From assembly GCF_004912275.1 (NCBI RefSeq), contig NZ_STGY01000056.1:62001-126000 (forward strand): 64,000 bases of DNA, written 5' to 3'. This document shows, piece by piece, positions 34,674 to 51,238 of the stretch. The position numbers and the translations under genes are program-made. This stretch comes from Glycomyces buryatensis. Lineage in GTDB: Bacteria > Actinomycetota > Actinomycetes > Mycobacteriales > Micromonosporaceae. Under the pieces are notes generated by a model. That model had not been told where the DNA came from. It saw only the letters and a list, made by a program, of their open reading frames with translations, and searched no databases. How positions within the stretch are numbered: the stretch's first letter is position 1; each line of letters begins with the position of its first letter.

Positions 34674-34682
34674 TGCTACCCC

Positions 34683-35072: not shown

Positions 35073-35132
35073 GAGTCGTACCTCGTTTCGGTGTAGTCGA
35101 TTGCGGTGGAAAGGGTTCGATGCGGAAGTGGT

Positions 35133-35735: not shown

Positions 35736-35757
35736 GTCGGTTCTCCTTTCGAGGTTC

Positions 35758-35792
35758 GGCGGCGAGCGGATCTGGCAGATCCGCTCGCCGCC
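35758..35792 (-). terminator. Intra-operon hairpin, 16-bp stem
   Basis: GGCGGCGAGCGGATCT pairs perfectly with AGATCCGCTCGCCGCC across a three-base loop, between the spdB-like stop (35850) and the next start (35735). It is the strongest of the operon hairpins, without a U-tract. Confidence 0.7.
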
Positions 35793-35849
35793 GATGGATT
35801 CGGGCTAGTGACTGCCGGGTGCGTCCCGTGCCTCGCCTGCGCCCGGCCA

Positions 35850-37163
35850 TTACTTGCCGTTTCGTTTCTTCAGATCGGCGACGAAGGTGTGCGCGGTCGA
35901 CGGGGCGCACTCGGCGCGGTCGGCGAGGTCGCGAACGGTCGGGTTCGGCACGCCTTCGGCGCGGAACGCGGCGAGCGCCTCGCCGAGCCGAACACTCGCC
36001 GAACGGCCGTCCTTGCTTGTTCGGCCGTTCGTGTTCGGTCCGGTCTTCTTCGGCTGCGGCCGAACAGGGGCCCCGGGCTTGTTCGGTGTCCGGTGTTCGG
36101 TGGTTCTGGAATCGCGAACAGGGTTGCGGCCCGAGCCGTCGGCAGGGGCCGAACGCCGGTCGGACAACGTTCGGCGAACAGTTTTCTCGCGCCCTCGTCC
36201 CGATGCGCCAGACTTGCCGATGTCGTGTTCGCTCGCGGCGGTGAGGACTTCGGCGACGGTGATTTTCCGCTGTCGGTAGCGGACCCGCAGCTCCGGTTTG
36301 GCACCGCGGACCGAACCGAACTCGGCCTTCATGACCGCCTTGGCCAGTTGGCGTTCCTCCTCGCGCTTCAACGCGTCCTCGTAGGAGTCGATGGCCCAGA
36401 GCTGCATCGCCCGCCACAGAATGAATGTGGCGATCGGGGCGCAGGCCCAGCGGATGAGCGGGACGGTGCGGGTGGTCGTGGCCTCTTCCTTGGCTTTGAG
36501 CTTCATGATCCGGGCGATGGCCTCGGTGAACACCACCCACAGGCTTGGCAGGACCGCGTGGGCGATCTGCGCTTCGAGCGCGGTGTAGGCGGTGACGTTG
36601 AGGTAGATCGTCGCTATGGTCAAACCCCAAGGCACGTAACGCAGCCAGGGGATCCGTTTGCCGCGGCGGGCGAGGAAGATGTCCAAGAGCGTGAAGGTGA
36701 TGATGCCCAGGTCGATCCCGGTGGGAAACAGCCAGGCGTAACCCTCGGGGGACCAGCTTCGCGCTTTCTCTTCCACGGTGAGGAAGGACACTGCGAACCC
36801 GGCGACGCCGAGCGCGCCGGCGAGGAACCAGATCGGCACCAGGGCGCCCCACTCGACCATCCACGCGGCCAGGGCGTCCCACCATCGCTGTTCGCCCGGC
36901 GGCTTGGTCTTGTGTTCGCGATGCTTTGTTCGGCGGGTGTTCGCCACCTCGGCTTCGGTCTGTTCGGTCGGTGTCCGGTGTTCGGCTGTGGCGTGTTCGG
37001 TCTCGTGTCCGGTGTTCGGTCCTGGCTCGGTTCGCCCCTGACGGGGGTGCCCGGTGACGGTCGTGTTCGGTGTTCGGTCGCACTCGCACATCGCGTCCGG
37101 TCGGTCGCAGCGGGGGCACCATTCGAGGATCGGTTCGTTGTCGTCGGTGTCGGTTGTGGGCAT
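35850..37163 (-). CDS. SpdB-like DUF2637 spread protein
   Basis: This 437-residue protein has a disordered N-terminus with a zinc-type CPRCDRPDAMCEC motif (residues 16-28), four membrane helices (about 105-260) forming the DUF2637 domain typical of Streptomyces SpdB/TraSA-linked spread proteins, and a long basic tail ending in a helix-turn-helix (PTVRDLADRAECAPSTAHTFVADL). It probably helps distribute the element through septa after transfer. The ATG at 37163 follows GGAAGGAGG. Its coding DNA carries dense GTGTTCGG repeats. Confidence 0.75.
   Translation of the reverse strand: MPTTDTDDNEPILEWCPRCDRPDAMCECDRTPNTTVTGHPRQGRTEPGPNTGHETEHATAEHRTPTEQTEAEVANTRRTKHREHKTKPPGEQRWWDALAAWMVEWGALVPIWFLAGALGVAGFAVSFLTVEEKARSWSPEGYAWLFPTGIDLGIITFTLLDIFLARRGKRIPWLRYVPWGLTIATIYLNVTAYTALEAQIAHAVLPSLWVVFTEAIARIMKLKAKEEATTTRTVPLIRWACAPIATFILWRAMQLWAIDSYEDALKREEERQLAKAVMKAEFGSVRGAKPELRVRYRQRKITVAEVLTAASEHDIGKSGASGRGREKTVRRTLSDRRSAPADGSGRNPVRDSRTTEHRTPNKPGAPVRPQPKKTGPNTNGRTSKDGRSASVRLGEALAAFRAEGVPNPTVRDLADRAECAPSTAHTFVADLKKRNGK
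36031..37077 (+). repeat. GTGTTCGG repeat clusters (candidate clt/TRS)
   Basis: The 8-mer GTGTTCGG occurs seven times in the same orientation: 36031, 36093, 36978, 36993, 37012, 37063 and 37070 (first bases). Five fall within 100 bp at the 5' end of the spdB-like gene. A longer unit GTGTCCGGTGTTCGG occurs three times (36086, 36971, 37005) and is read in two different codon phases. Streptomyces TraB proteins recognise clustered 8-bp repeats at the transfer locus, so this is a candidate clt. Confidence 0.6.
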
Positions 37164-37187
37164 GGTCGGTCGCCTCCTTCCGGAGCG

Positions 37188-37994
37188 TTAGTCGGTGTCG
37201 GTCGGTTCGGTGTAGGTCGTCAGAGCGGCCAGGGCCGAGCGGCGCCCTTTGCCGGTGGCGCGGACTGCGGCCCAGTCGATGTCGCGGTGTTTGGTTTCGA
37301 GTTCGGTCAGGTCGCTGGCGCGGTAGAGGGCGACGGCGGTGCCGAACCGCGTTTGGTAGGTGCGGACCGGGACGACGCGTTCGGCCCGTACGAGGTGGTC
37401 GAAGTCGGCCCGGCGGATGCCGAGTACGGCGGCGGCCTCGTCGCCGTGGAGTTCACGGCCGCTCTCGCCTGCGCGAGTAGCGGCTGCTGCGTCGTCGAAG
37501 GATTCGAGGCTGTAGCCCGAGTAGAGGAGGTGGTCCTTGTAGTCCCCGGCGGTATCGATCAGGCCCTGGCGGGCCAGTTCGGTCACGGCCTCGGGCGAGA
37601 CCTCGCAGCCGAGCTTGGCGGTGAGGTACTCGCCCGCCTTGCAGGCGCCGACGTCGGGCACGGTGCCGACGTGTGCGAGGACCTCGCCGATCCGATCGGC
37701 CATCGCGGTGAGCGTCTCGCGATTCCACTGCCGGGGGTAATAGTTGACCGGGGCCGCCCAGGGAAGCGCTTGGGCCCGGTCGATCTGGAACCGTTCCAGC
37801 GCCAGGAAGTCCCCGGCCTGGAGCGGCCCGAGCCGGGCCAGGTCGCGTTCGGCGATTGCCATTGCCGCGCGGGCGGCGTATTCGGTCAGGTTGCGTTCGG
37901 GCATCCACGGCACCCGCCACGCCCCGGTGTCACTGCGGAGGGCGACGTGCCCGCCAGCCTCGGCGACCATCCGGTCGTCCTCGATGCGGATCAC
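37188..37994 (-). CDS. Hypothetical protein with MerR/excisionase-like C-terminal segment
   Basis: The C-terminal part of this 268-residue protein (LHGDEAAAVLGIRRADFDHLVRAERV) resembles the helix-turn-helix of excisionase or MerR-like proteins; the rest is helical. No family is named. Its ATG overlaps the previous stop. It is a possible regulator or DNA-binding accessory of transfer. Confidence 0.5.
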   Translation of the reverse strand: MIRIEDDRMVAEAGGHVALRSDTGAWRVPWMPERNLTEYAARAAMAIAERDLARLGPLQAGDFLALERFQIDRAQALPWAAPVNYYPRQWNRETLTAMADRIGEVLAHVGTVPDVGACKAGEYLTAKLGCEVSPEAVTELARQGLIDTAGDYKDHLLYSGYSLESFDDAAAATRAGESGRELHGDEAAAVLGIRRADFDHLVRAERVVPVRTYQTRFGTAVALYRASDLTELETKHRDIDWAAVRATGKGRRSALAALTTYTEPTDTD

Positions 37995-38401
37995 CGGGCC
38001 GCCTCCAAAACCCCGGAAGCCTTGGTGATTGCGTCCTGCAGAACCTGACCGGATTCAGTGGACCCGAACGTGTACTTCGCGCATGTGGTGCGCACCCGGA
38101 CGGTGAAGTCGCCTAGGCGTATGCGGGTCTCGAAGTCGCCGAACCGCTCGTTGAACGTCCCGTCGCCGTACCGCACGGTCAGGCGACCGAACGCCACCAG
38201 GTCTTGGCGATCGCTGATGTACAAGGTCGCCTCGAAGTCGGCGTCATCGTCGTAGTCGGTCAGGTACCAGGTCAGGTCTAGGGCGGCGAAGTCGGCCTTG
38301 CGGACGGCGCTCACTTCCTTGCGGAGTTCGCGCTTGATAACGGCACTGGCGGCGATCAGAGCGAGACCGTGGATGCGCTGTGCTGCTTTGCTTTTGCCCA
38401 T
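37991..38401 (-). CDS. Hypothetical protein
   Basis: This 136-residue protein has a basic helical N-terminus and a beta-rich remainder (LDLTWYLTDYDDDADFEATLYI). No family is recognised. It is coupled at both ends by overlapping start and stop codons. Confidence 0.52.
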   Translation of the reverse strand: MGKSKAAQRIHGLALIAASAVIKRELRKEVSAVRKADFAALDLTWYLTDYDDDADFEATLYISDRQDLVAFGRLTVRYGDGTFNERFGDFETRIRLGDFTVRVRTTCAKYTFGSTESGQVLQDAITKASGVLEAAR

Positions 38402-38763
38402 CAGCGCACCTCCGGCTTTCCGCTCGCTTGGGCGATGGCGTCCAGGAGCGCGGTGAGGTTCGTCTGGTCGAGGCTGAGTGCGAGGGAGCCGAGGTCGACG
38501 TCGAGCTTCCCGGCCAGCGACAGGGCCGCTTCGGCGATGGACTGCTCGGCGCCCGAGAACGGTGCGCGGCGGATCTGGCGTTTCATCGCGTCGAAGTCGA
38601 AATGCAGCCAGGGATCGGTCTTGATGAACCGGTCGATCCAGATGTGTGCGATCAGGTTCGACTCGTCGAGCAACTGCAGGGCGGCCATGGTGCGCAGGTC
38701 GCCCTTGGCCCAGGCGTGGAGGTCGTCGACGTAGATCACGTCGGTTTCGGAGGTGGACTTCAT
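38401..38763 (-). CDS. Hypothetical protein
   Basis: This 120-residue acidic, mostly helical protein (VIYVDDLHAWAKGDLRTMAALQ) shows no recognisable motif. Its ATG overlaps the preceding stop by four bases. Confidence 0.5.
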   Translation of the reverse strand: MKSTSETDVIYVDDLHAWAKGDLRTMAALQLLDESNLIAHIWIDRFIKTDPWLHFDFDAMKRQIRRAPFSGAEQSIAEAALSLAGKLDVDLGSLALSLDQTNLTALLDAIAQASGKPEVR

Positions 38764-38939
38764 CGAGTGGCCTCCACAGTGACGGTGAGGTCGAAGCGGG
38801 GGTCGGGGCCGACGATCGTGACCTTCCCGGAGGCGTCGGATTTGATGGTTATGCCGCGGTGGGTGTGGTGGGTGTTCGGGGGCACGACGAAGGTGGTGTG
38901 GTCGATGATGACGGTGGAGCCGTCGATGTGGATTTTCAA
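38760..38939 (-). CDS. Small beta-rich hypothetical protein
   Basis: This 59-residue protein starts at TTG 38939, with AAGGAG ten bases upstream. The sequence (KIHIDGSTVIIDHTTFVVPP) is a compact beta protein and resembles the N-terminal domain of the protein at 25426-25956, suggesting duplication within the element. Confidence 0.5.
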   Translation of the reverse strand: MKIHIDGSTVIIDHTTFVVPPNTHHTHRGITIKSDASGKVTIVGPDPRFDLTVTVEATR

Positions 38940-38946
38940 AGCGCTC

Positions 38947-39384
38947 TTACTCCTTGCAGTCGAGGGCCGCCTCAATGGCGGCAGTGAGGTCGGGGTCGGG
39001 GGTCCACAGCCCGAGTTGGCCTCTGGCGGGGACCGGTTCGGCGAGGGGACGGACATCGGCGAGGACCCAGTGCCAGATGTCGCCGCCCATCTCGCCCCAG
39101 GACTTGCAGGCGGCCGTGTTGCACGCCGAAGGCCAACCCGCGGCGTGGCAGTCGACCAGATCGGCGACCGCCACGACCGCGCCCAAGACGAGGTTGTCTT
39201 TGCGGGGGATGAGGATGGGGCCGAAGGTCTTGCGGGCCCATTCCCATTCGGCGACGGCGAGCGTCTTACCCGCGTGGACGGCGACGGGCCCGGTGTAGTT
39301 GGTGCGGCGGACACGGTTTTCGATCGTCTTGCCGCCACGGGCGATCAAGTCCGGCCACGGCGGTCGGACGGTGAAGGCGCGCAT
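38947..39384 (-). CDS. ASCH domain protein
   Basis: This 145-residue protein has the ASCH/PUA-like fold: RPPWPDLIARGGKTIENR at the start (compare the family's W-a-x-x-I-x-x-GxKxxExR), then LGAVVAVADLVDC and a tryptophan-rich HWVLADVRPL. ASCH domains bind RNA or modified nucleosides, and some hydrolyse N4-acetylcytidine. Its role in the element is unknown, perhaps RNA-level regulation. Confidence 0.78.
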   Translation of the reverse strand: MRAFTVRPPWPDLIARGGKTIENRVRRTNYTGPVAVHAGKTLAVAEWEWARKTFGPILIPRKDNLVLGAVVAVADLVDCHAAGWPSACNTAACKSWGEMGGDIWHWVLADVRPLAEPVPARGQLGLWTPDPDLTAAIEAALDCKE

Positions 39385-39972
39385 CTAGACCTCCACCTCC
39401 TGGCGGACGGGCGTGGCGACCGCGGGCGAGACCGGTGCGACCTGTTCGGCCAGGCGCCCCGAGCGCTGTTCGGCGCGGGCCACCTTGTAGCCGAGGAACG
39501 CGGTCACCGTGACCGCCAGGAGCGCGGTCAGTGCCAAGCGGTCGGTGCCGCCGGCGATGATGAGCGCGGCCCAGACCAGATATCCGGCGTGCCACGACTG
39601 GTCGAGCAGGTAGGCGCCGTTCATGCCGAAAGACTTGAGACGGTAGAAGTCCTGCTTGCCGAGCGCGTTCGCGATGCGCCGCAGCGGCTCGCGCCGATCG
39701 GCGATGTAGTGGCTGACCGCCGAGACGCCCAGGCCGATCGCGGTCGGGACGGGCTCGGTGCTCAGGTCCAGGTACAGGTGCGCGAGCCCCAAACCGATGA
39801 CGGCGGTGGCGGTGTAGGTCGCGACGTGCTTGACGCACGCGAGACGACCGATCCAGCCCGGCAGTCCCTTGGCGTCCGAGTCGGCCTGATGCTGGATCCA
39901 GTGGTCACCCACCGCGTGAGCCGCTCCCAAAATGGCGCTCACGGCCGCGAAAACAGCGATGGTCTCGTTCAC
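39385..39972 (-). CDS. DUF3307-like membrane protein
   Basis: This 195-residue protein has about four membrane helices, a histidine-rich first segment (AHAVGDHWIQHQ), CVKHVATYT, and an AVSHYIADRRE segment that fit DUF3307. Histidines in the membrane face suggest metal or lipid contact, but no function is established. Actinobacterial AICEs often carry this family. Confidence 0.65.
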   Translation of the reverse strand: MNETIAVFAAVSAILGAAHAVGDHWIQHQADSDAKGLPGWIGRLACVKHVATYTATAVIGLGLAHLYLDLSTEPVPTAIGLGVSAVSHYIADRREPLRRIANALGKQDFYRLKSFGMNGAYLLDQSWHAGYLVWAALIIAGGTDRLALTALLAVTVTAFLGYKVARAEQRSGRLAEQVAPVSPAVATPVRQEVEV

Positions 39973-40175
39973 CGGCCCTCACCACCCGCGTGTTCGCTCA
40001 CGGCGGCGGCGAGGGTCTCGGCTTGGTCCTCATCGAGTTCGAGGAGCTGCTCGACGAGCTTGGAGCCGGACCGTTCGCCCAGGCCGGGAAGCCCGGCGTG
40101 GGCGGGGCCGATGGTGCCGGTCGGCAGACCGGCGTCCTCGAGTGCGAGCAGCGCCCGCTGATAGACAGTGGACAA
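39969..40175 (-). CDS. Small helical hypothetical protein
   Basis: This 68-residue protein starts at TTG 40175 with GGAGGTGG six bases before it, an unusually strong ribosome site overlapping the GGDEF stop region. The sequence (LSTVYQRALLALEDAGLPTG) is helical and acidic. No family is recognised. Confidence 0.6.
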   Translation of the reverse strand: MSTVYQRALLALEDAGLPTGTIGPAHAGLPGLGERSGSKLVEQLLELDEDQAETLAAAVSEHAGGEGR

Positions 40176-40176
40176 G

Positions 40177-40860
40177 TTAGGCCACCTCCACCTGGTGGAC
40201 GGGCACGTCGGTGCGGGCGGGGAGGTCGCGGGTGCGCAACGCCGGCCGGTCGGCCGTGGCGTGGTCGTCGGCATAGGGGTCGAAGACGCACAAGATGCCG
40301 TCGCCGGTGGCCTTGTTGCGGTACATCGCCGCATCCGCCCGCCGCATCGCCTCGGAGAGATCGCCGTCGAATCGCGCCGCGCCCATGGCGATGCGCGACC
40401 AGACGGTATCCCCGCCGGGGGCCTGCTCGGTGATCGCGACCACCGGCGCACGCCGGGCCCGCAGCGCCTCGAAGACTCTCGAGGTGGCCAGGAGTGCGAA
40501 CTCGTCGCCGCCGAGGCGGGCGACCAGAGCACCCGGGGCCGCCGCGCTCAGCGCGGCGGCCGCGTCGGCAATGAGCTCGTCGCCGGCCTCGTGCCCGTAG
40601 ACGTCGTTGACCTGCTTGAGGCCGTTACAATCGGCGAGGATCACATACAGGTCCTGGGCGCCGCCGGTCGAGTTGGTCCTTGCCCCGGCGGCCCTTTCCC
40701 ACCCCCTCCGATTCAGCAGCCCGGTCAGGGCGTCGGTGTGCGCTTCGCGTTCGGCCCGGCCAAGCAGCCGGTGTGCCGTAACCCAGGCGGTCAGACCGAC
40801 CGCGGACGAGGAGACGGCAACGCCGGCGGCGAAGCCGGTGATCATCGCTGGGTCCATCAC
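40177..40860 (-). CDS. GGDEF protein (probable diguanylate cyclase)
   Basis: This 227-residue protein has one N-terminal membrane helix (about 5-30) followed by a GGDEF domain with LTGLLNRRGW, ADCNGLKQVND, the intact active-site motif RLGGDEF and a C-terminal ADAAMYRNK. Such enzymes make cyclic di-GMP from two GTP. The RxxD inhibitory site that usually lies just before GGDEF is absent, so product inhibition is unlikely. In actinomycetes c-di-GMP controls development, so an AICE-encoded cyclase could affect the host's growth phase (inference). Confidence 0.88.
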   Translation of the reverse strand: MMDPAMITGFAAGVAVSSSAVGLTAWVTAHRLLGRAEREAHTDALTGLLNRRGWERAAGARTNSTGGAQDLYVILADCNGLKQVNDVYGHEAGDELIADAAAALSAAAPGALVARLGGDEFALLATSRVFEALRARRAPVVAITEQAPGGDTVWSRIAMGAARFDGDLSEAMRRADAAMYRNKATGDGILCVFDPYADDHATADRPALRTRDLPARTDVPVHQVEVA

Positions 40861-41201
40861 CGCACCTCCTTCTTCGCATCGTCACCCTCGAGCGCGGTCT
40901 CGACGTCGTTGAGCATGCGGGCGTAGAAGTCGCGCAGTTCCCGCTGGAAGTAGTTGCTCATCCGCCTGCGCAGCGCGTTCTTGAGGTGACCGGTGCCCTC
41001 GGCGGAGTGGACCAGGCGGCAGCCGTCCTCATAGGCGTCGAGCTTGTGGCGGTTGATGGTGTGTTCGGCTGAGTAGTAGCCCGTCTCGTTCATGCGCTTA
41101 GCCGCTTCAGTGGCCCGTGCGCCCCACATGGCGTAGAGGTCGGTCTTGATGCTCAAGGCAGGAGTTCCTTTCGAATTTGGTTGCTGGACTGGGTGATTCA
41201 C
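40857..41201 (-). CDS. Hypothetical protein
   Basis: This 114-residue basic helical protein (KTDLYAMWGARATEAAKRMN) has no recognised family. The GTG at 41201 overlaps the previous stop; a TTG at 41156 with AAAGGA nine bases upstream is an equally good start. It ends overlapping the GGDEF gene. Confidence 0.52.
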   Translation of the reverse strand: MNHPVQQPNSKGTPALSIKTDLYAMWGARATEAAKRMNETGYYSAEHTINRHKLDAYEDGCRLVHSAEGTGHLKNALRRRMSNYFQRELRDFYARMLNDVETALEGDDAKKEVR

Positions 41202-41395
41202 ATTTCGGCGGCCAGGCGGGTGCCGTCGAACTTCAGATAGACGCGGACATCGCCGCTGCCGCCCCTGGTGGGGTAGGGCGGCGAGACGTTCAGCAGGATC
41301 GGCGGATCATCCTCAACCGCCTCCTCGCGCATGGACTCGACGACCGCCATGACCTCGGCGGATCGGCCCGTCAGGCGCATCTGCAACTCAGCCAC
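41198..41395 (-). CDS. Small hypothetical protein
   Basis: This 65-residue protein starts at GTG 41395, overlapping the previous gene by eight bases. It has an alternating helix-strand composition (MRLTGRSAEVMAVVESM, then VRVYLKFDGTRLAAEM). It may be related to its upstream neighbour, whose end has a similar EVRVWVPLYG strand. Confidence 0.48.
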   Translation of the reverse strand: MAELQMRLTGRSAEVMAVVESMREEAVEDDPPILLNVSPPYPTRGGSGDVRVYLKFDGTRLAAEM

Positions 41396-41759
41396 GAGCG
41401 GCCACCGCCTTCCGGCGGGCGGCATCGACAACGTCGATCGCGGTCTGGACGCTCATGCCGTACAACGGCACCCACACCCGGACCTCGGTCCCGGCGAGGT
41501 AGACCCGGCACTCGAACTCGCCGGCCGCGTGCGTGTCGCGCTCGGCGGGAGCGAGCTGGTAGTGGCCGGCCATGTTCGCCCAGGCCGCGAACGCGACCAG
41601 AGACTCAGGCCCGGGCGCGAACCGGATCGGCGAGGGAAGTGCGTTGAACCCGCCAGCCCTGGTGTGCCCGAACACGAGCCGCGGCATCTGCGCGGCCTCG
41701 CCGTAGAGCACCGAGTTCGCCGACCCGGGCACCGCGTTGAGCCGATCGAGCAGTCTCAT
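41388..41759 (-). CDS. Hypothetical protein
   Basis: This 123-residue mixed alpha/beta protein ends with a helix (SVQTAIDVVDAARRKAVAA). No family is recognised. The ATG overlaps the previous stop by four bases. Confidence 0.5.
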   Translation of the reverse strand: MRLLDRLNAVPGSANSVLYGEAAQMPRLVFGHTRAGGFNALPSPIRFAPGPESLVAFAAWANMAGHYQLAPAERDTHAAGEFECRVYLAGTEVRVWVPLYGMSVQTAIDVVDAARRKAVAARG

Positions 41760-42220
41760 CGAGGTTCACCGCCTTCGCGGAAGAACAGCTCGACCTCGTC
41801 GACACGCCCGACCTCGGTCAGATCCAGCCAGTCCTCGTCGCGCCCGTCGAGGGGCTTGACGCCGATGAGGACCTTCCGGCCGGTTTCGCCGACGCGGCCG
41901 CCCTCGTCGAGGGTCCAGGCGAACAGTTCGCCGTGGCCGAGCACGAAGACCGTGCCCTGCTTCGGCGCCTGTTTCCTCCAGTGCTCGCGCATTTTCTTGG
42001 CGGCCTCGGTGCGAGGAGGGCGTCCCGGCCGGTAGGGGACAGTGACGATGGCGCGCAGTTCGCCGACCTTGCCGACCGGGGCCTTGGCGAAGTCGACGGC
42101 GGTGCGCTCGTCGAACGTCCCCGGCCCGGGAACCAGGAAGACCGAGCCCCACCGGTCGCTGTGCCGCTCCCACGAGGTGTGCCCGACACGACCTCGGCCG
42201 AGCGTGATGTCCCTGCCCAT
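41756..42220 (-). CDS. Hypothetical protein
   Basis: This 154-residue beta-rich protein (RWGSVFLVPGPGTFDERTAV; GTVFVLGHGELFAWTLDEGG) has a central basic helix. No family is recognised. It is coupled to the upstream HTH-like gene by a TGATG overlap. Confidence 0.5.
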   Translation of the reverse strand: MGRDITLGRGRVGHTSWERHSDRWGSVFLVPGPGTFDERTAVDFAKAPVGKVGELRAIVTVPYRPGRPPRTEAAKKMREHWRKQAPKQGTVFVLGHGELFAWTLDEGGRVGETGRKVLIGVKPLDGRDEDWLDLTEVGRVDEVELFFREGGEPR

Positions 42221-42702
42221 CAGCCGTTCACCGCCTCAAGGTTCTGGGCGGCGACCTGGCGCAGGAGGAAGAACTCCTGGACGTCGACCAGAGTCTGGGT
42301 TTCGACCGCCTCGCGTTCGAGGTCGAGCAGGAACTCAGCGGAGATGAACCGGACTTTGCCGAGCACAGCGCCGGGGAAGGCGCCGGAGTCGATCAAAGCG
42401 GTCAGGTGCCGCCGGTCGATCCGCAGCAGCTTCGCGGCCTCCTGGAGTCGCAGGAAGGTCTTGTCGCCGAACGGCTCAGGCGGTTCGACAGGCATGCCTC
42501 GCAGCTGGGCATCGATCGCCCGCAGGGCTGAGGCCGGAACCCGCCAGGACTGGGTGGAGAGCCGGATGCCGCCGAGTCCACCGCTCTCAAGGCGTCGGCG
42601 AACCTCCGATTCGCTGAGCGGCACGAAGGCCGGGACCTCGGACACTTTGTAGTACCGCTCGGTCATTGCCGACAGCGGTTTGGAGGCGAGGGCCATGGTC
42701 AT
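42220..42702 (-). CDS. Helix-turn-helix protein, excisionase-like (two HTH units)
   Basis: This 160-residue protein has two excisionase/MerR-like units: YYKVSEVPAFVPLSESEVRR near residue 17 and TFLRLQEAAKLLRIDRRHLT near 82. This makes it the best Xis or operon-regulator candidate in the element. The ATG at 42702 follows AGGGAG at six bases. Confidence 0.6.
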   Translation of the reverse strand: MTMALASKPLSAMTERYYKVSEVPAFVPLSESEVRRRLESGGLGGIRLSTQSWRVPASALRAIDAQLRGMPVEPPEPFGDKTFLRLQEAAKLLRIDRRHLTALIDSGAFPGAVLGKVRFISAEFLLDLEREAVETQTLVDVQEFFLLRQVAAQNLEAVNG

Positions 42703-42787
42703 ACTTGTCTCCCTTCAGGGTTGGACCGGCCGGGGAAGGCCGATTGGGTGGCGGCGGTCAGTGCCGCCAAGGCATCGATCGGGAGAT

Positions 42788-43234
42788 TCACGCGGCCGCG
42801 ATGCTCAGTACCGGTGGCGGCCGCTCGCTTCGCTCGGCGAGGGCACGATCGACGATGCTTTTCGAGACGCTGAGGCGTAGGGCGATCTCGGAGCGTTTGA
42901 GCCCCTGGTCGCGCAGCTTGCGTACGGCCATGTCTCGTTCAGTCGGAGTCAGGTTCGGTGCGGGCGCCTCGCCGTTCATGGCTCGGTCGACCGCGACCTG
43001 GTCGACCAGTTTGGGGTCAAATGCCGGCGGATGCTGTGGCAGTTGCACGTCGGCGGCGAGGAGCGCGTCGGCGCGGATCACCGCCTCCCAGCATCTGCCG
43101 CAGGCGACCTTGTTCTTGCCGCTGCGGTAGAGCGGATGCTCGGTCTTGCAGCGGCGGGTCGCGGCTTCGGCGAGCGGATGCGTATAGCTGAAGTGCGGAG
43201 CGTGCGGACGGGAGATTCGGCGGGGGCGGCTCAT
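42788..43234 (-). CDS. Putative regulator with C-terminal HTH and CxxC segment
   Basis: This 148-residue protein has a basic N-terminus with spaced cysteines (RRCKTEHPLYRSG, CGRCWEA) that may bind zinc, and a C-terminal resolvase/sigma-type helix-turn-helix (TPTERDMAVRKLRDQGLKRS, then EIALRLSVSKSIVDRAL). It is probably a DNA-binding regulator of the operon. The ATG overlaps the stop of the first gene. Confidence 0.62.
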   Translation of the reverse strand: MSRPRRISRPHAPHFSYTHPLAEAATRRCKTEHPLYRSGKNKVACGRCWEAVIRADALLAADVQLPQHPPAFDPKLVDQVAVDRAMNGEAPAPNLTPTERDMAVRKLRDQGLKRSEIALRLSVSKSIVDRALAERSERPPPVLSIAAA

Positions 43235-43476
43235 GATGCGGCCACCGCCGAGGTGCCCAGGCGCCGAATTTCGGCGGTCAGGTCGATGACGATCTCGTAT
43301 TCGGCGTCGGTGTCGTCGAGGCCGCCGGTGATCCAGTTCCGGTACGTCGCATAGTCGATGTCGAGGAACTTCATGATCTTCGACGGGAGGATTCCCCGAG
43401 CGCGCATACGCAGCGCCTTGATGGCGGTAGCGGCATCACCCTTCAAGTCGAGGTTCTCGGTGTTGACAGACTGCAA
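43231..43476 (-). CDS. First gene of the long operon: small HTH-like protein
   Basis: This 81-residue protein (ALRMRARGILPSKIMKFLDI, then DYATYRNWITGG) looks like a phage-type helix-turn-helix. I chose TTG 43476, with GAAAGGAA just upstream; an ATG at 43515 in the same frame has no ribosome site. A leader of about 440 nt separates it from the rrn-leader-like box. Confidence 0.55.
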   Translation of the reverse strand: MQSVNTENLDLKGDAATAIKALRMRARGILPSKIMKFLDIDYATYRNWITGGLDDTDAEYEIVIDLTAEIRRLGTSAVAAS

Positions 43477-43728
43477 AGGAATTTCCTTTCGGTTGCGCCG
43501 CAATGAGTGCGGCATGGTGAACGACCGGCGCGGTTCGCGCTGCCGTGAAACGAAAATGGGGAAGGTCTGTGAGGTGCGGCGGAGCGGGGCTCGACGCCGC
43601 GAAGGGGCTGAATCGTGTTCAGGGGCGGGGGCGCGGACTGGTCCGCGCCCCCGCGGCCTGGGTGCGCCCGTCGGACGTTGAGAACGACGACGGGCCGGTG
43701 GTGTCTCGCCAGTGTTTGCGGCGAGAGT

Positions 43729-43913
43729 GCGCTGTGTCCCTCCGCTCAGGGTTGGTCCCGGTCTCGAGGAGGCCCGTTATTCCCCAGTCAGGGAATGGGC
43801 CCGTGGCTCCCGGTGAGGGAGTGGTCGTCCTTGCTTGCCGGGACGTTCCGGCCACGGCGCGATCTGCGCGGCGACGGGAACAGTTCAAACACCCTGTTGA
43901 GTTCTCAAACAAC
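43729..43913 (-). ncRNA. rrn-leader-like RNA element, copy A
   Basis: Read on the minus strand, the element begins with GTTGTTTGAGAACTCAACAG, followed by GGGTGTTT, then ACGGGCCTCCTCG and finally GGGACACAGCGC. The first block matches, from memory, the conserved TTGAGAACTCAA box of actinobacterial rRNA leaders, where antitermination and processing signals lie. The same three blocks occur in the same order in copy B. This copy lies in the untranslated leader of the 20-kb operon. No protein is encoded here. Confidence 0.55.
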
Positions 43914-44005
43914 GCACCCCGCTGTCAGACCGCAATTGGCCCTCCAACGAACTTCCAGAGCTGGTGACCGTTTGGACAGAAACCCAGGAAGCGATTTGGT
44001 TGGTT

Positions 44006-44067
44006 CATGGTAGGCATACCATGAAGCTACCGTCAACCTACCAATGGAAGTTTTTTGGTAGGTCCTC
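44006..44067. promoter_or_regulatory. Operator/promoter region of GntR1
   Basis: CATGGTAGGCATACCATG (44006-44023) is an inverted repeat. Related GGTAGG/CCTACC half-sites follow at about 44027-44063. The region lies between the long minus-strand operon and the gntR-nudix pair. It is the probable operator through which this GntR protein represses both directions, as KorSA-type regulators do in AICEs. Confidence 0.65.
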
Positions 44068-44111
44068 ATGGAAGGGCTATGGTTGGGTGCTGGTCCGGAT
44101 TAGGGGGAGGC

Positions 44112-44861
44112 ATGGCTAAACCACCAACCAAGGCTGAGACGGTCGCCAATGCTCTTGGCGCGCTGATTCTCAAGGGCACCTACAAAGCAGGAGACTGGCT
44201 TCCAGCCGAACGCGAGCTGGCAGACCAGTACGAGGTCGATCGCTCGACGGTGCGCAGAGCGGTGCGGATGCTCGCAGAGCAAGAACTGGTCGTCATCAAG
44301 TCCGGGGTCGGCGCGCAGGTCAGGGCAGGCGAAACTCTTCAACGAGATGCGGCTGATGTGACCCGCCAGGTGGGCGACTGGCGAGGAGTGCACGTCTCCA
44401 TCACTCAGTCCGGAAGGGAACCCTTCACGGAGACCAAAGTGTCTGAGGCGGTCGCTGATGCTCGCCTCGCGCGATGGCTTGGGGTCACCACAGGAGCGCC
44501 TCTAGTTGAGCGCGCACGACTTCAAGGTGTCGTCGGCGACCCGCCATTCCAGATTTCGACTACGTGGATTCCGCCTGAGACGATGGCGGAGTTTCCGGCC
44601 CTCATGCAGGTCAACACCGGTCCCGGTGGCATCTACTCTCGATTCGAGGAGAAGGGGCACGACCTCATGTTCGAAGAATCCGTCACCTGCCGGCTCCCGA
44701 GAGCCCACGAACAAGAAGTTCTGGAGATCGAGGCGAGCCAGCCAGTCCTCACGACCTGGCGACGGTGCTACGACCAGCGGGAACGAATCATGGAGGTCAC
44801 GAACAAGATCATCGTCGGTGAGCGACATGATGTGATCTACCGCTTTGGAGGACGGCCGTGA
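44112..44861 (+). CDS. GntR/UTRA transcriptional regulator (repressor of element)
   Basis: This 249-residue regulator has an N-terminal GntR winged helix (LPAERELADQYEVDRSTVRR, then AVRMLAEQELV) and a C-terminal UTRA ligand domain (about 80-245). By place and type it is the counterpart of AICE repressors such as KorSA. The ATG at 44112 follows TAGGGGGAGG; reading frames reaching further upstream are not needed. It is divergent from the transfer/replication operon and coupled to the NUDIX gene. Confidence 0.85.
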   Translation: MAKPPTKAETVANALGALILKGTYKAGDWLPAERELADQYEVDRSTVRRAVRMLAEQELVVIKSGVGAQVRAGETLQRDAADVTRQVGDWRGVHVSITQSGREPFTETKVSEAVADARLARWLGVTTGAPLVERARLQGVVGDPPFQISTTWIPPETMAEFPALMQVNTGPGGIYSRFEEKGHDLMFEESVTCRLPRAHEQEVLEIEASQPVLTTWRRCYDQRERIMEVTNKIIVGERHDVIYRFGGRP

Positions 44862-45409
44862 CCATCGCAGACCGGGATCCCGACATCAAACAAGTGGCGA
44901 GCAAAGTCGCATATCAGAACCCCTACATGACCCTCAGGGAAGATGAGATCGAGAGGCGTGACGGTTCGAGAGGCATCTACTCGGTCGTCGAGAAGCCCGA
45001 CTTCGCGCTCATCGTTCCTGAGGAGTCGGATGGGTTCTGGCTGGTCGAACAGTTCCGTTACCCTGTTGGCGCTCGAAGCTGGGAGTTCCCGCAGGGAACG
45101 TTTCCACAGGGCAAGACCGGCACGGCAGAAGCTCTTGCTACTGCGGAACTGGCCGAGGAGACCGGCATAGCTGCTGGCCAGCTTGAGAAGATCGGGTTTC
45201 TTTACTGCGCAAAGGGAATGAGCAGCCAAGGATTCCACATCTTCGTGGCAACCGAGCTTCAGCACGGCACTCCAAACCGGGAGACCGAGGAACAAGACAT
45301 GATCCACAAGTGGTTCAGCCGAGCCGACGTCGAAACGATGATCAAAGCCGGCGAAATCACGGATGACTCCACGATCGCGGCCTACGCGTTGGTGATGCTG
45401 AGCAACTGA
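44858..45409 (+). CDS. NUDIX hydrolase, candidate Pif-like immunity protein
   Basis: This 183-residue NUDIX-fold protein resembles ADP-ribose pyrophosphatases (WEFPQGTF; AELAEETGI). The NUDIX box is degenerate: the first Glu is replaced by Lys and the Arg of REUxEE by Ala, while the EE pair and final G remain. In the Streptomyces element pSAM2, the NUDIX-motif protein Pif blocks redundant transfer between element carriers, and this gene sits in the matching regulatory spot. Its GTG overlaps the gntR stop. Whether it still hydrolyses nucleotides is doubtful. Confidence 0.75.
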   Translation: MTIADRDPDIKQVASKVAYQNPYMTLREDEIERRDGSRGIYSVVEKPDFALIVPEESDGFWLVEQFRYPVGARSWEFPQGTFPQGKTGTAEALATAELAEETGIAAGQLEKIGFLYCAKGMSSQGFHIFVATELQHGTPNRETEEQDMIHKWFSRADVETMIKAGEITDDSTIAAYALVMLSN

Positions 45410-45437
45410 ACTGGGAACAGCTTGTTCCAGAACCTGC

Positions 45438-45489
45438 TTGGGGCCTGACATCCGTGACGGATGTCAGGCCCCATTCTCTTGCCCGCGAG
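45438..45489 (+). terminator. Terminator hairpin, copy 1 of a 52-bp direct repeat
   Basis: GGGGCCTGACATCC pairs with GGATGTCAGGCCCC, giving a 14-bp stem ending before ATTCTCTT. The 52-bp block from TTGGGGCC to CCCGCGAG is identical to 47761-47812. Here it lies 29 bp after the NUDIX stop and also terminates minus-strand RNA coming from copy B. Confidence 0.85.
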
Positions 45490-45501
45490 TGCGGGCGGGT
45501 G

Positions 45502-45659
45502 GCGCTGTGTCCCCAGCGCTGTGGGCGTCCCGGATCGAGGAGGCCCGTAGCTCTTGTTCGAGCGGGCGACCTTGCACACCGGGCCGTATTCCTGCCCCCA
45601 CGCGGCACGTCGACCGGCGGGACAGGAACCACAAACACCCTGTTGAGATCTCAAACAAC
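45502..45659 (-). ncRNA. rrn-leader-like RNA element, copy B
   Basis: This diverged copy of the element at 43729 carries GCGCTGTGTCCC (45502), CGAGGAGGCCCGT (45536) and a 27-base box differing from copy A by one position (TTGAGATCTCAA instead of TTGAGAACTCAA). On the minus strand it would be transcribed from the GntR2 operator region towards the hairpin at 45438. The likely product is a short RNA of about 300 nt, with no gene behind it. Confidence 0.5.
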
Positions 45660-45777
45660 ACGCTTCGTCGTCGAGTCGCGAGCGACTGTTCGACAGAGCG
45701 AATGCCTTGGGCTGCTTCACACACCGGTGGCGTTTGCCGCAGCACCTGACATTCAGAGCCGCCTTGTACGTCAAGGC

Positions 45778-45897
45778 GTGTAGTGCTACACACGACTGTA
45801 TCGTGTAGTACTACGCATGTCAACCTGGGGTCCAAATCACCCGCCTGCCTGCGAAGATGCTTGCGAGTTCACGGCAAGCTATTGTGTAGTAGTACAC
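45778..45897. promoter_or_regulatory. Three GntR2 operator sites
   Basis: The inverted repeat GTGTAGTACTACAC, or near variants, occurs at 45778-45791, 45803-45816 and 45884-45897. The last site is 28 bp upstream of the gntR start. The layout implies autoregulation and control of a divergent minus-strand promoter. Confidence 0.8.
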
Positions 45898-45925
45898 GGT
45901 GTACCACGGAGTTAGGAGGACTGCG

Positions 45926-46687
45926 GTGTCGCCGAAAGTTCAACGCACGAAAGCGGCCTACGAGCAGATCTACGAAGACCTGCGCGACAAGATCGCCAAT
46001 GACGATCTGGCTGTCGGCGACAAGGTGCCCTCGGCACGGCAGCTCGCCGACGATTGGGATGTGCAGCCCAACACCGCTATGAAGGCGTTGACCGTGCTGC
46101 GGCGCGAGGGGCTCACCGAGACGATCCTTGGGAAGGGAACCTTCGTCCGCGACCAACAGGCTCACAGGACCGCCCAGGACCGGCTTCGCTCGATCCGCAG
46201 TTCAGGGCGGATTTACCCCGACAACGAATACGCGCGCATCCTCGAAACCGAGCTGGTGCCTGCGCCGGAACCGGTCGCGGTAGCCCTAGGGCTCGAGACC
46301 GGATCCCCGGTGATCCGTCGTCTGCGCGTGACGATCAATCGGGAATCTGAGACGCCGGTCTCCGTGTCGACAAGCTGGTTCAACGGAAGCCTCGCCACCA
46401 CTTCTCCAGACCTGCTCGTGGCGGAGCGACTTCCGGAAGGAACGCCCGCGTATATCGAGCGCACCACCAACCGGCGTATCACCGCGGGCCGTGACCAGTC
46501 CGCGGCTTCGGCCGCCGCCGAGCGCGACGCCGAACTGCTTCAGGTCGAGGTCGGCTCGCCGATTAAACGAGGCCGGAACTGGTTGACCGACGCGGAGGGC
46601 GACGTCGTCGAGTACGGCGAGTCCGTGAGTGTTGCCGACCGCTGGTCGACCTACAGCTACGAGATCCACTCCGAGACAGAGGACTGA
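45926..46687 (+). CDS. GntR/UTRA transcriptional regulator of the purC cassette
   Basis: This 253-residue regulator has a GntR winged helix (SARQLADDWDVQPNTAMKAL) and a UTRA domain (about 75-245; ETGSPVIRRLRVTINRES). GTG 45926 follows TTAGGAGGA. It is distinct from the first GntR protein and has its own set of palindromic operators. It shares a transcript with the purC homologue, four bases away, so its ligand may be a metabolite of that enzyme. Confidence 0.85.
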   Translation: MSPKVQRTKAAYEQIYEDLRDKIANDDLAVGDKVPSARQLADDWDVQPNTAMKALTVLRREGLTETILGKGTFVRDQQAHRTAQDRLRSIRSSGRIYPDNEYARILETELVPAPEPVAVALGLETGSPVIRRLRVTINRESETPVSVSTSWFNGSLATTSPDLLVAERLPEGTPAYIERTTNRRITAGRDQSAASAAAERDAELLQVEVGSPIKRGRNWLTDAEGDVVEYGESVSVADRWSTYSYEIHSETED

Positions 46688-46691
46688 GATT

Positions 46692-47522
46692 GTGCAACTA
46701 CTTCACTCCGGCAAGGTAAGGGATGTCTACGAGGACCGCGGCGACATCATCCTCGTCGCCTCCGACAAGGTCTCCGTCTACGACGTCGTCCTCCCGACCC
46801 CGATCCCCGAGAAGGGGAAGTTCCTGACCGCGTTGAGCTTGTGGTGGTTCAACCAACTCGCCGACCTCGTACCCAACCACGTCATCTCGGCTGACGACGT
46901 CCCTGCCGAATTCGCGGGACGTGCGATCCGCTGCAAGAAGTTGGAGATGCTGCCGGTCGAGTGCATCGCCCGCGGCTACCTGGCCGGCCTCGGTCTGCGC
47001 GAGTACACGCGCGATGGGGCGATCTCCGGCGTGCAGCTCCCCGAGGGACTGCTTGAAGGTTCCAAGCTGCCCGAGCCGGTTTTCACCCCGACGACGAAGG
47101 CCACTGAAGGCCACGACGAGTTCATCACCTTCGACGACGTCGCCAAGTCCATTGGATCCGATACCGCCGACCGACTCAAGGAACTGACCATCGAGGTCTA
47201 CAGCCGCGGCGCCGAGATCGCCGCCGAGCGCGGCATCATCATCGCCGATACCAAGTTCGAGTTCGGCTTCGACGCAGACGGCGCCCTGGTCCTCGGCGAC
47301 GAGATATTGACGTCGGACTCCTCCAGGTTCTGGCCTGCCGACGAGTGGGAGCCCGGGCGGCCGCAGTACGCCTTCGACAAGCAGTTCGTGCGCGACTGGG
47401 CGTCCTCGACCGGATGGAACAAGCAAGCGCCGGCACCCGAGGTCCCCGACGAGATCGTCGAGGCGACGAGGGCGCGTTACCGTGAGGCCTACGAGCGCAT
47501 CACCGGGGAGACGTGGAAGTAA
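46692..47522 (+). CDS. purC: SAICAR synthetase homologue carried by the element
   Basis: PurC condenses CAIR with aspartate using ATP, a step of purine biosynthesis. This 276-residue copy has the family motifs GKVRDVYE, DKVSVYDVVLPTPIPEKG, LPVECIARGYL, FTPTTKA and DSSRFWPADEWEPG, all apparently intact. GTG 46692 gives the normal N-terminus. Its setting, on a conjugative element behind a GntR regulator, is unusual, since purC normally sits in the chromosomal pur operon. It may serve an element-specific nucleotide pathway or supply purine intermediates. Confidence 0.88.
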   Translation: MQLLHSGKVRDVYEDRGDIILVASDKVSVYDVVLPTPIPEKGKFLTALSLWWFNQLADLVPNHVISADDVPAEFAGRAIRCKKLEMLPVECIARGYLAGLGLREYTRDGAISGVQLPEGLLEGSKLPEPVFTPTTKATEGHDEFITFDDVAKSIGSDTADRLKELTIEVYSRGAEIAAERGIIIADTKFEFGFDADGALVLGDEILTSDSSRFWPADEWEPGRPQYAFDKQFVRDWASSTGWNKQAPAPEVPDEIVEATRARYREAYERITGETWK

Positions 47523-49471: not shown

Positions 49472-51064
49472 TTAGAGAAGGATCTTCTTGAGATGCGAAT
49501 CGACGTCGTCAACCACGCACGCGGGGACTCCGCGGGCCGCCCGGACGAGGCCGTCGTCGATCAGCAACTGCAGTGCACGGTGGGCAGTCGACGGCGCGAC
49601 TTCGTAGCGCTCTGCGAGGGCCTTCTGGGGCGGGAGACGGTCGCCGGAGGCGATGATCCCCGCGCGAATGGCGCCGAGCAGGTCTCGAGCAATGTGTTCG
49701 TAGGGTTCAGTAGGTTCTTCGGGGACCACAGGCGCGGGCTCGGCGGTGAGCATCTGCCTGGCGGCCGCGGGAATGGACGGCATCCGCATGCCGGTGAGGT
49801 CGGCCGCCCGCTGGGCGGACTCACTGCGGTGCGCGGCGTACACACGGAGCGTCGTGGTACCGCCGCCACCATGACCGAGGATGCCGGCGACGGTCCGGAC
49901 GTCGACTCCGGCGGCGATGAGCTCAGTCGCGGCAAAGTGGCGGGTCTCCTTGAGGGTGGCTTTGATGCCGAGGCGGTCCCGGAGGCGGCCGAAGCGCTGG
50001 GTGAGCGTCGATGGTCGGTGCCAGCTGGCGCAGTCAGGGTCGGGGGAGAAGATTCGTCCGTTCGGGGCGATCGTGGCCCCCAGTGCTTCGGCTTGACGCT
50101 CCCGATGGTTCCGGTAGGCGCGCAGCAGTTGGATGTCGAATTCGGTGAGCGCGACGCGTCGCTTGCGGTGGGTCTTGGTGTCCTTCTCCCGCATTTGTCC
50201 ATCGTCGGACTCGCTGATGGCGGTCTCGATGCGAAGCACTCCGACGTCGAGGTCGAGCCGGTCCCAACTCCAAGCGCATATCTCGCCTCTGCGTGCTCCG
50301 GTGCGCACCGCCATCCATATCAGCAGGCCCCATTCGGGGTCACTGTGCCAAGCGGCGTTGATCAGTCGGCCGATCTCCTCCGAGGTGGGCGGGTTCGGGT
50401 CGGGGGGTGGTGCTGCGGGCGGGTCGGCGAGGGCGATGGGGTTGACGGCCAGCCACTTCCAGCGGACGGCTCTGGTCAGTGCCCCCGAGAGGACAGTATG
50501 GATACGCCGGACCGTGTCGTCGGCCAGGGGGCGGCATTGGTGGGCTTTGCAGCGATCGTCGCACTCGTGGAGAAGAGCAGTGCGGTGATCGACCAAACGC
50601 TCGCCGCGGCGGCAGTGCCGGCGGCAGCGCAGCAATTCGCCGTAGAAGCTGTCGAAGATTTCGGCGTCGAGGTCGGCGATCTTCACGTCGCCGATGATCG
50701 GCCGGATGTGGTTTCGGGCCCGGGCCTTGTCGTCTTCGATGGTCTCGGGCTCGACCTTGCGCTTGCGTTGCGCGGGTGGGAGTTCGAGGTACTTGTCGAG
50801 AAGTTCGTTCACGGTCGCGTTAGTGCGGGGGTGGCGTCGCGCGTCAACTTGGGCGATGAAGCCCTGCTTGATCTGTTCGGCGCGCTTCCATGCCTCGCGT
50901 CGCGTCTTTACAGCGGCGTTCTTCGGCACTTGCACAGTCTCGGTGAGGTTGTTCCGCGCGCCGGTGCGCTTGTCGGTCCCCGCGTAGACGGTCACTCTCA
51001 GTGATCCGCTGGGGAGTTCTTCGATGGAGCCGCGGTCGCGGATCGGCTTGAATTTCTCGGTCAT
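49472..51064 (-). CDS. int: Tyrosine integrase with C-terminal GntR winged helix
   Basis: This 530-residue site-specific recombinase moves the element in and out of tRNA-Ala. It has an N-terminal arm-binding region, a SAM-like core-binding domain and the catalytic domain with Arg in RTGARRGEI, box II LKETRHFAAT (the usual first His is Lys), LGHGGGG and the nucleophile Tyr in LRVYAAH. Beyond this, residues from about 455 form an extra GntR-type winged helix (ALAERYEVAPSTAHRALQLL). The ATG at 51064 is about 100 bp from attR. The extra domain is unusual. Confidence 0.9.
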   Translation of the reverse strand: MTEKFKPIRDRGSIEELPSGSLRVTVYAGTDKRTGARNNLTETVQVPKNAAVKTRREAWKRAEQIKQGFIAQVDARRHPRTNATVNELLDKYLELPPAQRKRKVEPETIEDDKARARNHIRPIIGDVKIADLDAEIFDSFYGELLRCRRHCRRGERLVDHRTALLHECDDRCKAHQCRPLADDTVRRIHTVLSGALTRAVRWKWLAVNPIALADPPAAPPPDPNPPTSEEIGRLINAAWHSDPEWGLLIWMAVRTGARRGEICAWSWDRLDLDVGVLRIETAISESDDGQMREKDTKTHRKRRVALTEFDIQLLRAYRNHRERQAEALGATIAPNGRIFSPDPDCASWHRPSTLTQRFGRLRDRLGIKATLKETRHFAATELIAAGVDVRTVAGILGHGGGGTTTLRVYAAHRSESAQRAADLTGMRMPSIPAAARQMLTAEPAPVVPEEPTEPYEHIARDLLGAIRAGIIASGDRLPPQKALAERYEVAPSTAHRALQLLIDDGLVRAARGVPACVVDDVDSHLKKILL

Positions 51065-51134
51065 GTGGAACGACCTTAAGCAGGTTCGTTCCATATTCCG
51101 TACCACGGAAACCGGCCGGTCCCGGAAACGAACA

Positions 51135-51159
51135 TTCCCCAGGCCACCGACCTGGGGAA
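51135..51159 (-). terminator. Hairpin after tRNA-Ala
   Basis: TTCCCCAGG and CCTGGGGAA form a perfect nine-base-pair stem directly downstream of the tRNA 3' end, on the element side. It replaces the original tRNA terminator that was moved to the far end at 22449-22510. Confidence 0.6.
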
Positions 51160-51164
51160 ATGAT

Positions 51165-51211
51165 GTGGAGCCAAGGGGAATCGAACCCCTAACCTCCGCC
51201 TTGCAAAGGCG
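51165..51211 (-). repeat. attR: 47-bp tRNA-Ala repeat
   Basis: Identical to 22581-22627. Here it is continuous with the 5' half of a complete tRNA-Ala, so integration has restored the tRNA with element-derived 3' sequence. Confidence 0.95.
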
Positions 51212-51238
51212 GCGCTCTGCCAATTGAGCTATGGCCCC
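51166..51238 (-). tRNA. tRNA-Ala (anticodon TGC)
   Basis: On the minus strand the 73-nt gene starts GGGGCCATAGCTCAATTGG, has anticodon loop CTTTGCAAG with TGC, a T-arm with GGTTCGATTC, and acceptor end TGGCTCCA. All stems pair, with one G-U in the acceptor. CCA is not encoded. It is the attachment site of the element. Confidence 0.96.

Follow-up and report, generated by a model that had tools for sequence, protein, structure and literature searches.

What is the box of an rRNA leader doing, twice, inside a conjugative element? The question is raised by a 64-kb window of DNA from the soil actinobacterium Glycomyces buryatensis (the whole stretch analysed, from contig NZ_STGY01000056.1), which holds an actinomycete integrative and conjugative element (AICE) with two short minus-strand leaders, A (43729-43913) and B (45502-45659). 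Both leaders open with the box and continue with the blocks ACGGGCCTCCTCG and GGGACACAGCGC. With a probability of about 0.6, we read A and B as rrn-type boxA sites that would let host Nus factors carry RNA polymerase past terminators, each site being followed by a folded RNA specific to the element and by a terminator-like hairpin. The support found in the sequence consists of the box itself, its identity to the 16S leaders of the genus, its position (in A and in a homologue, C, of a related element) with a divergent regulator on one side and an operon on the other, its recurrence in other mobile elements of actinobacteria, and the hairpins of the operon.

Both leaders open with the 16S rRNA leader box of the genus

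The box, GTTGTTTGAGA[A/T]CTCAACAGGGTGTTTG, lies on the minus strand at 43894-43913 in copy A and at 45640-45659 in copy B. With up to 3 mismatches allowed, these two are its only matches in the 64 kb, and 100 shuffles give none. A weight matrix of 32 positions, built from 18 distinct rrn-leader boxes of relatives, gives scores of 49.8 at A (43886..43917) and 47.9 at B (45632..45663), the next best place in the window scoring -7.0. Chance origin of the box is ruled out by these shuffle and matrix controls. The second and third blocks are present in order in both leaders, as the pattern GGGCCTCCTCG-N8..38-GGGACACAGCGC, and the description of A and B in the first-pass annotation as sharing three blocks in the same order is confirmed by shuffle control, pattern search and matrix.

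The resemblance of the first block to the box of actinobacterial 16S leaders, which that annotation had pointed out, turned out to be an identity: 28 nt of A are found unchanged in the 16S rRNA leaders of congeneric Glycomyces genomes, and B differs by one base. The comparison was made with congeners, the host's own 16S leader being a run of N in the assembly. A 23-base pattern of the box, with up to 2 mismatches, is present in 63 of 101 genomes (the host and 100 relatives). Among the 27 relatives' loci that were inspected first, 12 reach the start of the 16S gene, 103-236 nt downstream of the box, and the remaining 15 run out because the contig ends no more than about 210 nt from it; among 40 further loci, 27 extend to the 16S start (97-259 nt), 12 break off where the contig ends, within 450 nt, and one (L058) is not an rrn locus. 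The box thus lies 97-259 nt upstream of the 16S gene in every fetched relative locus that reaches the start of this gene. Five plus-strand matches in the genus (G005, G013, G014, G016 and G017) stand outside these counts and may be rrn copies at contig ends. In sequence, then, the box of A and B is that of 16S leaders in the host's genus, one of the marks of an rrn-type boxA site. BoxA binds NusB-S10 and is part of rrn and lambda antitermination (PMC12691694, PMC10931766), and mycobacterial rrn leaders carry Nus-bound boxes (PMC5676007).

The likeness to rrn is confined to this first block. The rrn leaders inspected lack blocks 2 and 3, so that the first-pass view of A and B as rrn-leader-like elements holds for the box and fails for the rest of the leaders. 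Across 354 genomes, the pattern of blocks 2 and 3 occurs in A and B and in one other genome (G233, a 59-base match); the two blocks belong to a folded RNA specific to the element. Rfam has no match at A or B that reaches a gathering score, and its three matches in 43300-46200 are far below such scores, the best one falling on the hairpin at 45440-45472. The whole A leader has no match in phages by BLAST, and two plasmid records give short matches to its GC-rich 3' part. Viral contigs gave no match to strict patterns of the long box or of the second and third blocks.

The box recurs in mobile elements of the genus and beyond

Every copy of the box found outside rRNA operons in the genus belongs to a mobile element: two are those of this AICE, and the others are in a prophage and in AICEs with RepSA. 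The host genome has three near-matches (at most 1 mismatch), all in mobile elements, namely A, B and a site on contig C76; because terminase genes precede the latter and a run of small genes follows it, we take this locus to be a prophage of the same genome. The non-rrn locus mentioned above (L058/L093) is an AICE encoding RepSA and an integrase.

RepSA matches are found in 188 of 250 genomes of the family, and 60 of these regions were scored for the box, 40 of them near the top of the listed matches (some near contig ends left out) and 20 from further down, 8 of the latter being picked for their membership in the genus; the selection was blind to the box. The highest score of the reversed-matrix control, 5.1, is exceeded by 11 of the 60 regions: 4 of 13 in the genus (L158, L167, L168, L169) and 7 of 47 outside it (L125, L130, L132, L134, L138, L146, L150). 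L127 had the highest score and was excluded from the 11, its match being an rrn copy at a contig end. The 16-base core of the box, with up to 3 mismatches, has 15 matches in 13 of the 60 loci (L127 included), and 12 permuted motifs give between 0 and 3. The signal is thus conserved in related elements, in these 11 regions and in homologue C of the AICE at L234 (see below). We tabulated 16 loci, made up of 14 RepSA AICEs (L136 and L170 scoring below the control), L234 and the prophage L092. A crude calling of open reading frames (ORFs) places the box between genes in 15 of them, and in 11 it sits 61-159 nt after a gene of 60-145 amino acids on the same strand. Among 20 named RepSA loci of one genome scan, a single one, the G018 element, has the core within 2 mismatches.

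Phages carry the box as well, although their records, like those of plasmids, are often close relatives or double entries and their counts are not independent. A 33-base query of the box matches 30 phage records, of which 22 are actinophages and 8 are not: 21 of the 22 actinophage matches lie under no annotated feature, and all 8 others lie under annotated genes. The reversed query matches 7 phage records, none named as an actinophage and all under annotated genes. A query of the mycobacterial type matches 142 records, 55 of them Escherichia phages; among the best 60 of the 142, 47 are actinophages, all without a feature under the match, and 13 are other phages, with 12 matches under an annotated gene and 1 unannotated. 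In IMG/VR, 7 contigs match the box and none matches the reversed pattern; no 16S start was seen in the available stretches of these contigs, one of which is probably phage Immanuel3.

The position of the box bears on its use. In 9 of the 10 phage regions read, it lies 323-505 nt upstream of the next gene on the same strand, and only in phage Zuko is it closer, at 27 nt. For 7 of these 9 phages there is no annotation between the box and the genome end upstream of it; P3.1 and Gilson have genes further upstream. The operons that follow would be early operons. Plasmid matches number 19 records, of which 6 were read. Those of Tsukamurella and Arthrobacter were dropped as rrn operons (16S gene 222 and 186 nt downstream). 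In the other four, which are not rrn, a gene follows the box after 177-432 nt. A divergent GntR gene stands directly upstream of the box in pSQ10 and the S. cyaneofuscatus plasmid; in Streptomyces NBC_01267 a single small gene separates the box from such a GntR gene, and in the S. uncialis plasmid a divergent sigma factor and a UTRA regulator are found upstream. The distances in A and in the phages bear on the idea that the box exerts translational or attenuation control on the first genes, in the manner of the boxA in the suhB 5' untranslated region, instead of processive antitermination of an operon. The precedent is real, since boxA-bound NusB-S10 blocks translation of suhB in Escherichia coli (PMC10931766), but the box lies about 370 nt from the first ORF in A, and the spacing is just as generous in all the phages read except Zuko, which makes such control unlikely.

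The versions of the box carried by mobile elements seem to lean towards those of the host. CAATAG is found in two of the four mycobacteriophages (MrMagoo and Scherzo) and in a Nocardia phage, the other two mycobacteriophages having CCATAG (PegLeg) and AAATAG (Superchunk). CAACAG is found in three of the four Streptomyces phages (HaugeAnator, FlowerPower and Zuko) and in three Streptomyces plasmids. The exceptions are Streptomyces phage Gilson, with CAATAG, and Gordonia phage Bantam, with CAACAG. Howe and Smith are said to have described, in 1996, a sequence resembling an rrn antiterminator in the cos-region leader of phage phiC31, and this older work may have foreseen the phage part of our observations.

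Could the box be a functionless relic of recombination with an rrn operon? Its full identity over 28 nt in A and its degenerate form in homologue C would fit such an origin. Yet there are two copies here, as well as separate occurrences outside any rrn context in a prophage, AICEs, phages and plasmids, and no rrn similarity was seen beyond the box in A, B or the other non-rrn occurrences compared. We regard a relic as very improbable.

A folded RNA specific to the element follows the box

The third homologue of the leaders, C, lies at 9138-9300 of L234 (G021 contig 6), an AICE of which 20 of 29 kb were read. The window has 10 genes between gene 4 and the DUF2637 gene, both included; 9 of them, all but gene 8, have matches in L234 in the same order. 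L234 also shares with the window the second GntR regulator (GntR2, 74%) and purC (84%). Upstream of C are the promoter region of GntR2 and a small ORF; downstream of it is a gene that resembles, by eye, a helix-turn-helix (HTH) or excisionase gene.

Folded separately, the three leaders have two helices in common. P1 has TTCC/GGAA at its base; P2 has CCGG/CCGG, an AGG/CCU step and a GCCC/GGGC-type stem with a 3-nt bulge. Only B and C clearly form a third one, P3, whose loop contains GGGACA. The folded RNA of A spans 43738..43881 on the minus strand, with P1 at 43845-43881, P2 at 43755-43844, including an extra inner hairpin, and a weak 4-bp hairpin at 43738-43751 in the place of P3. That of B spans 45502..45628 on the same strand, with P1 at 45589-45628, P2 at 45529-45583 and P3 at 45502-45519. 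The longer leaders A and B, hairpins included, fold below all shuffles (0 of 100 and 0 of 200 as low). A covariance model of the P2-P3 region, searched with stricter filters in 250 genomes of the family, finds A, B, C and one weak match (E 0.0023), which has no box and was judged false by eye. In all three leaders a perfect hairpin of 13, 16 and 16 bp, respectively, follows, 187-289 nt after the box.

The strong folding of the longer leaders would also suit a replication or transfer signal, such as an RNA-primed or a single-strand origin, lying in the leader by chance, and RNA-based origins with a noncoding RNA are described in mycobacterial prophages (PMC7157519). Such a signal leaves unexplained the identity to the 16S leader and the lean towards host-like versions of the box, and we consider it improbable, somewhat more so than control of the first genes.

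Leader A heads a presumed long operon with hairpins at gene ends

Promoter prediction in 43400-46000 yields two sigma-70-like sites, where 0.4 would be expected. Both are on the minus strand and lead into the copies: one at 44007..44036 for leader A and one at 45795..45823 for leader B. The box lies 94 nt downstream of the predicted -10 hexamer in A and 136 nt in B. On the plus strand, a GntR-UTRA regulator (GntR1) and a NUDIX gene (44055..45409) diverge from A, and GntR2, of the same type, and purC, for SAICAR synthetase (45899..47522), diverge from B. The GntR-controlled divergent promoters of the first-pass annotation correspond to these predictions beside divergent GntR genes, whose products may control them. 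Its placing of A in the leader of a 20-kb operon and of B beside a purC cassette agrees with the gene order.

The run of minus-strand genes headed by A extends from about 43.5 to 23.1 kb. The presumed operon (23076..43515) encodes small HTH-like proteins, an excisionase-like protein, a GGDEF protein, a DUF2637 protein, a weakly matching FtsK/TraB-like ATPase, a DnaB helicase, a DNA methyltransferase and others. The ATPase candidate, of 673 amino acids, matches the TraB model NF041214 with E 1.6e-11 and 43 bits, against a cut-off of 800, and FtsK-like PHROGs with E 1e-4; a protein of 513 amino acids has no matches. The first genes have only weak HTH matches, and the protein of the very first one (77 residues) found only itself in 354 genomes of the family. 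The GGDEF (diguanylate cyclase) gene, at 40177-40860, lies inside the conjugative operon and is kept in L234 (62%).

The window has 17 perfect stems that reach 11 bp or more (loops of 3-10 nt); none occurs in any of 5 block-shuffled copies. Of the 17, 12 are within 56 nt of the 3' end of a predicted gene. The 13-bp hairpin between leader A and the first gene (43625..43654, minus strand) is terminator-like, with no U-tract on that strand; contig C68 of G000 has a relative of it (87% over 47 bp), which begins only a few bases past a stop codon. The 16-bp hairpin behind B (45439..45473) has a T-rich tail on the plus strand, 30 nt after the NUDIX gene. Further down the minus-strand run there are hairpins of 18 bp (35756..35794, 56 nt after the DUF2637 gene), 12 bp (33096..33122, 10 nt after the gene of the 513-residue protein), 14 bp (25121..25154, 45 nt after a minus-strand gene and inside the next predicted ORF), 14 bp (24340..24374, in an intergenic gap) and, at the 3' end of the operon, 14 bp (23014..23046, with a stem ending in CTCTTT); another perfect stem, at 40537-40561, is inside a gene. 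At the place matching 35756-35794, L234 has a hairpin of different sequence. Because such hairpins stand at gene ends, we infer that those of the operon may terminate transcription. Terminators without U-tails have reportedly been found in phage phiC31.

Leader B looks like an orphaned older copy

Why are there two copies? B sits between the NUDIX gene and the GntR2-purC pair, all on the plus strand, and GntR1, the NUDIX gene and genes 1-3 lie between B and gene 4. The 20 kb of L234 contain no match to the NUDIX gene or to genes 1-3, and GntR1 matches there only the GntR2 gene, at 27%. Because C directly precedes the collinear operon of L234, which has no counterpart of these genes, B looks like the older leader of the backbone, orphaned when a module of GntR1, NUDIX gene, promoter and leader A came between B and the operon. 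As a different HTH-like gene occupies this place in L234, the change may have involved replacement of genes in addition to their gain. A terminator-like sequence of 60 bp is repeated at 95% after the NUDIX gene (45438-45497) and after purC (47761-47820), flanking the module of leader B, GntR2 and purC, which suggests that this module was inserted or duplicated by recombination. The first-pass picture of two leaders thus applies to A, at the head of the operon, and is doubtful for B as a second working leader.

An element that keeps such a copy also invites the thought that Nus factors are recruited for other ends, be it to help a stable leader RNA fold or be processed, or to titrate Nus factors away from rRNA synthesis, with B as a non-coding RNA of this kind. 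B has a predicted promoter, a box, a folded RNA and a hairpin and no operon of its own, and the E. coli rrn complex also aids rRNA folding, maturation and subunit assembly (PMC6614801). Against this, the homologous RNA C directly precedes the operon in L234, and in the phages, plasmids and AICEs read the box is part of a leader or a gap that genes follow. We hold this explanation to be unlikely, if the least so of the alternatives to antitermination.

Two observations concern the genes around B. The purC gene (46629-47522), an odd cargo for a conjugative element, travels with GntR2 both here and in L234, where its protein has the 84% identity given above. A second GntR1-NUDIX pair of the host, at 9677-10611 of L236 (G000 contig 3), is 81% identical over 130 residues and 71% over 181 residues, and has no box within 1 mismatch, weaker boxes not having been sought. 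The idea that the GntR-NUDIX pair marks box-bearing elements was rejected, the box being found in none of 29 loci around other NUDIX homologues.

A proposed mechanism and its relation to known systems

That the leaders are transcribed under GntR control, bind Nus factors and allow read-through is inferred from sequence features, as is the succession of events. When a GntR repressor releases the promoter, the box in the nascent leader would recruit the host's Nus factors (NusA and NusB-S10), as such boxes do on pre-16S RNA. The modified polymerase would then pass the leader hairpin and the hairpins inside the operon, at which stray transcripts coming from elsewhere would stop. The folded RNA may stabilise or tune the Nus complex. 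The host's NusA is close to the structures 1k0r and 2asb/2atw of the PDB, which we take to be M. tuberculosis NusA, presumably with rrn-box RNA in 2asb/2atw. Of the two uses offered by the first-pass annotation, antitermination or processing, the former is the one we favour, and nothing specific was found for the latter.

A number of observations weigh against this antitermination reading. First, the idea that all RepSA AICEs carry the box had to be rejected, 49 of the 60 regions having none above the control; since the box of C is also degenerate (score 9.7, still the best place of the L234 locus, the next scoring -2.3), the box is not essential to AICEs. Second, the RNA structure has thin comparative support: P3 is unclear in A, where the weak hairpin has another sequence; in the consensus of the three sequences, 2 of 21 pairs are changed on both sides and 5 are broken or gapped in one sequence; the covariation term of the sequence-based consensus is +0.56; and z-scores of the folded cores are only -2.0 to -2.3, with 3, 5 and 11 of 200 shuffles folding as low as the three cores. 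Third, a strong hairpin does not follow every box: this notion was rejected outside A, B and C, as 24 other box-bearing loci have no stem of more than 8 bp within 330 nt. Fourth, the hairpins inside the operon have no U-tracts on the minus strand, U-tailed terminator-like sites are not in excess in 22700-42600 (17 against 12.4 expected), and the lack of predicted promoters in the same interval (0 found, 0.9 expected) says little.

Among known systems, the closest is the rrn antitermination site itself (boxA/nut of the actinobacterial 16S leader), which has the same box sequence; here the box stands 94 nt (A) and 136 nt (B) after the predicted -10, in a host that has NusA. Unlike at that site, no rRNA follows here, but a different folded RNA and the operon of a conjugative element. 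The place of the leader recalls conAn of pLS20-type plasmids, which opens a long conjugation operon with more than 20 terminators under one regulated promoter (PMC8955417). That system has a protein of its own, ConAn1, and an RNA, conAn2, whereas the cis signal here is the rrn box; no dedicated antitermination protein was recognised in the element, where no model-based search (for ConAn1, for example) was made. In lambda, nut and N place a boxA in the leader of phage early operons, together with Nus factors (PMC12691694); neither an N-like protein nor a boxB was identified here, and neither was searched for. The put RNA of HK022 and the EAR RNA are RNA-only antitermination signals (PMC8955417), and a folded leader RNA is present here too, with the difference that boxA precedes it. 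Antitermination in mobile elements is already well known in general. What would be new is the use of the rrn box by an AICE: in agreement with the first-pass annotation, no description of rrn-type antitermination in AICEs was seen among the open-access papers listed by the searches.

A wider reading is possible, and we advance it tentatively, as clearly less probable than the one of A and B. A composite antitermination RNA not described so far, joining a host-type rrn boxA to the dedicated folded RNA of A, B and C, would make the polymerase of one regulated promoter resistant to termination along the entire operon of an AICE. More generally, phages, plasmids and AICEs of actinobacteria would have the rrn boxA of the host again and again, in many cases in their own host's version, as a means of driving early or transfer operons. 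If so, it would account for the read-through of internal hairpins in long operons that actinobacterial conjugative elements and phages keep tightly repressed, and it would tie the expression of mobile elements to the factors that serve rRNA synthesis. The box would provide a short searchable signature for the starts of such operons, and its occurrences a natural set of boxA sites outside rRNA, in a phylum where little was found on antitermination outside rRNA.

Other features of the element and the window

The element has a tyrosine integrase on the minus strand (49472..51223) with a GntR domain at its C-terminus (residues 507-569), and is bounded by att repeats, one in a tRNA-Ala (51165..51211) and its partner at 22581-22627, identical over 47 bp. 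No RepSA was seen among the proteins of the element that were scanned (not all were), and a DnaB helicase is present; the host genome has two RepSA matches, the one listed being on contig C9. A perfect hairpin of 30 bp stands just outside the att repeat at the left end of the element (22448-22511). Elsewhere in the window, a cobalamin riboswitch lies on the minus strand at 3009-3256 (73.4 bits).

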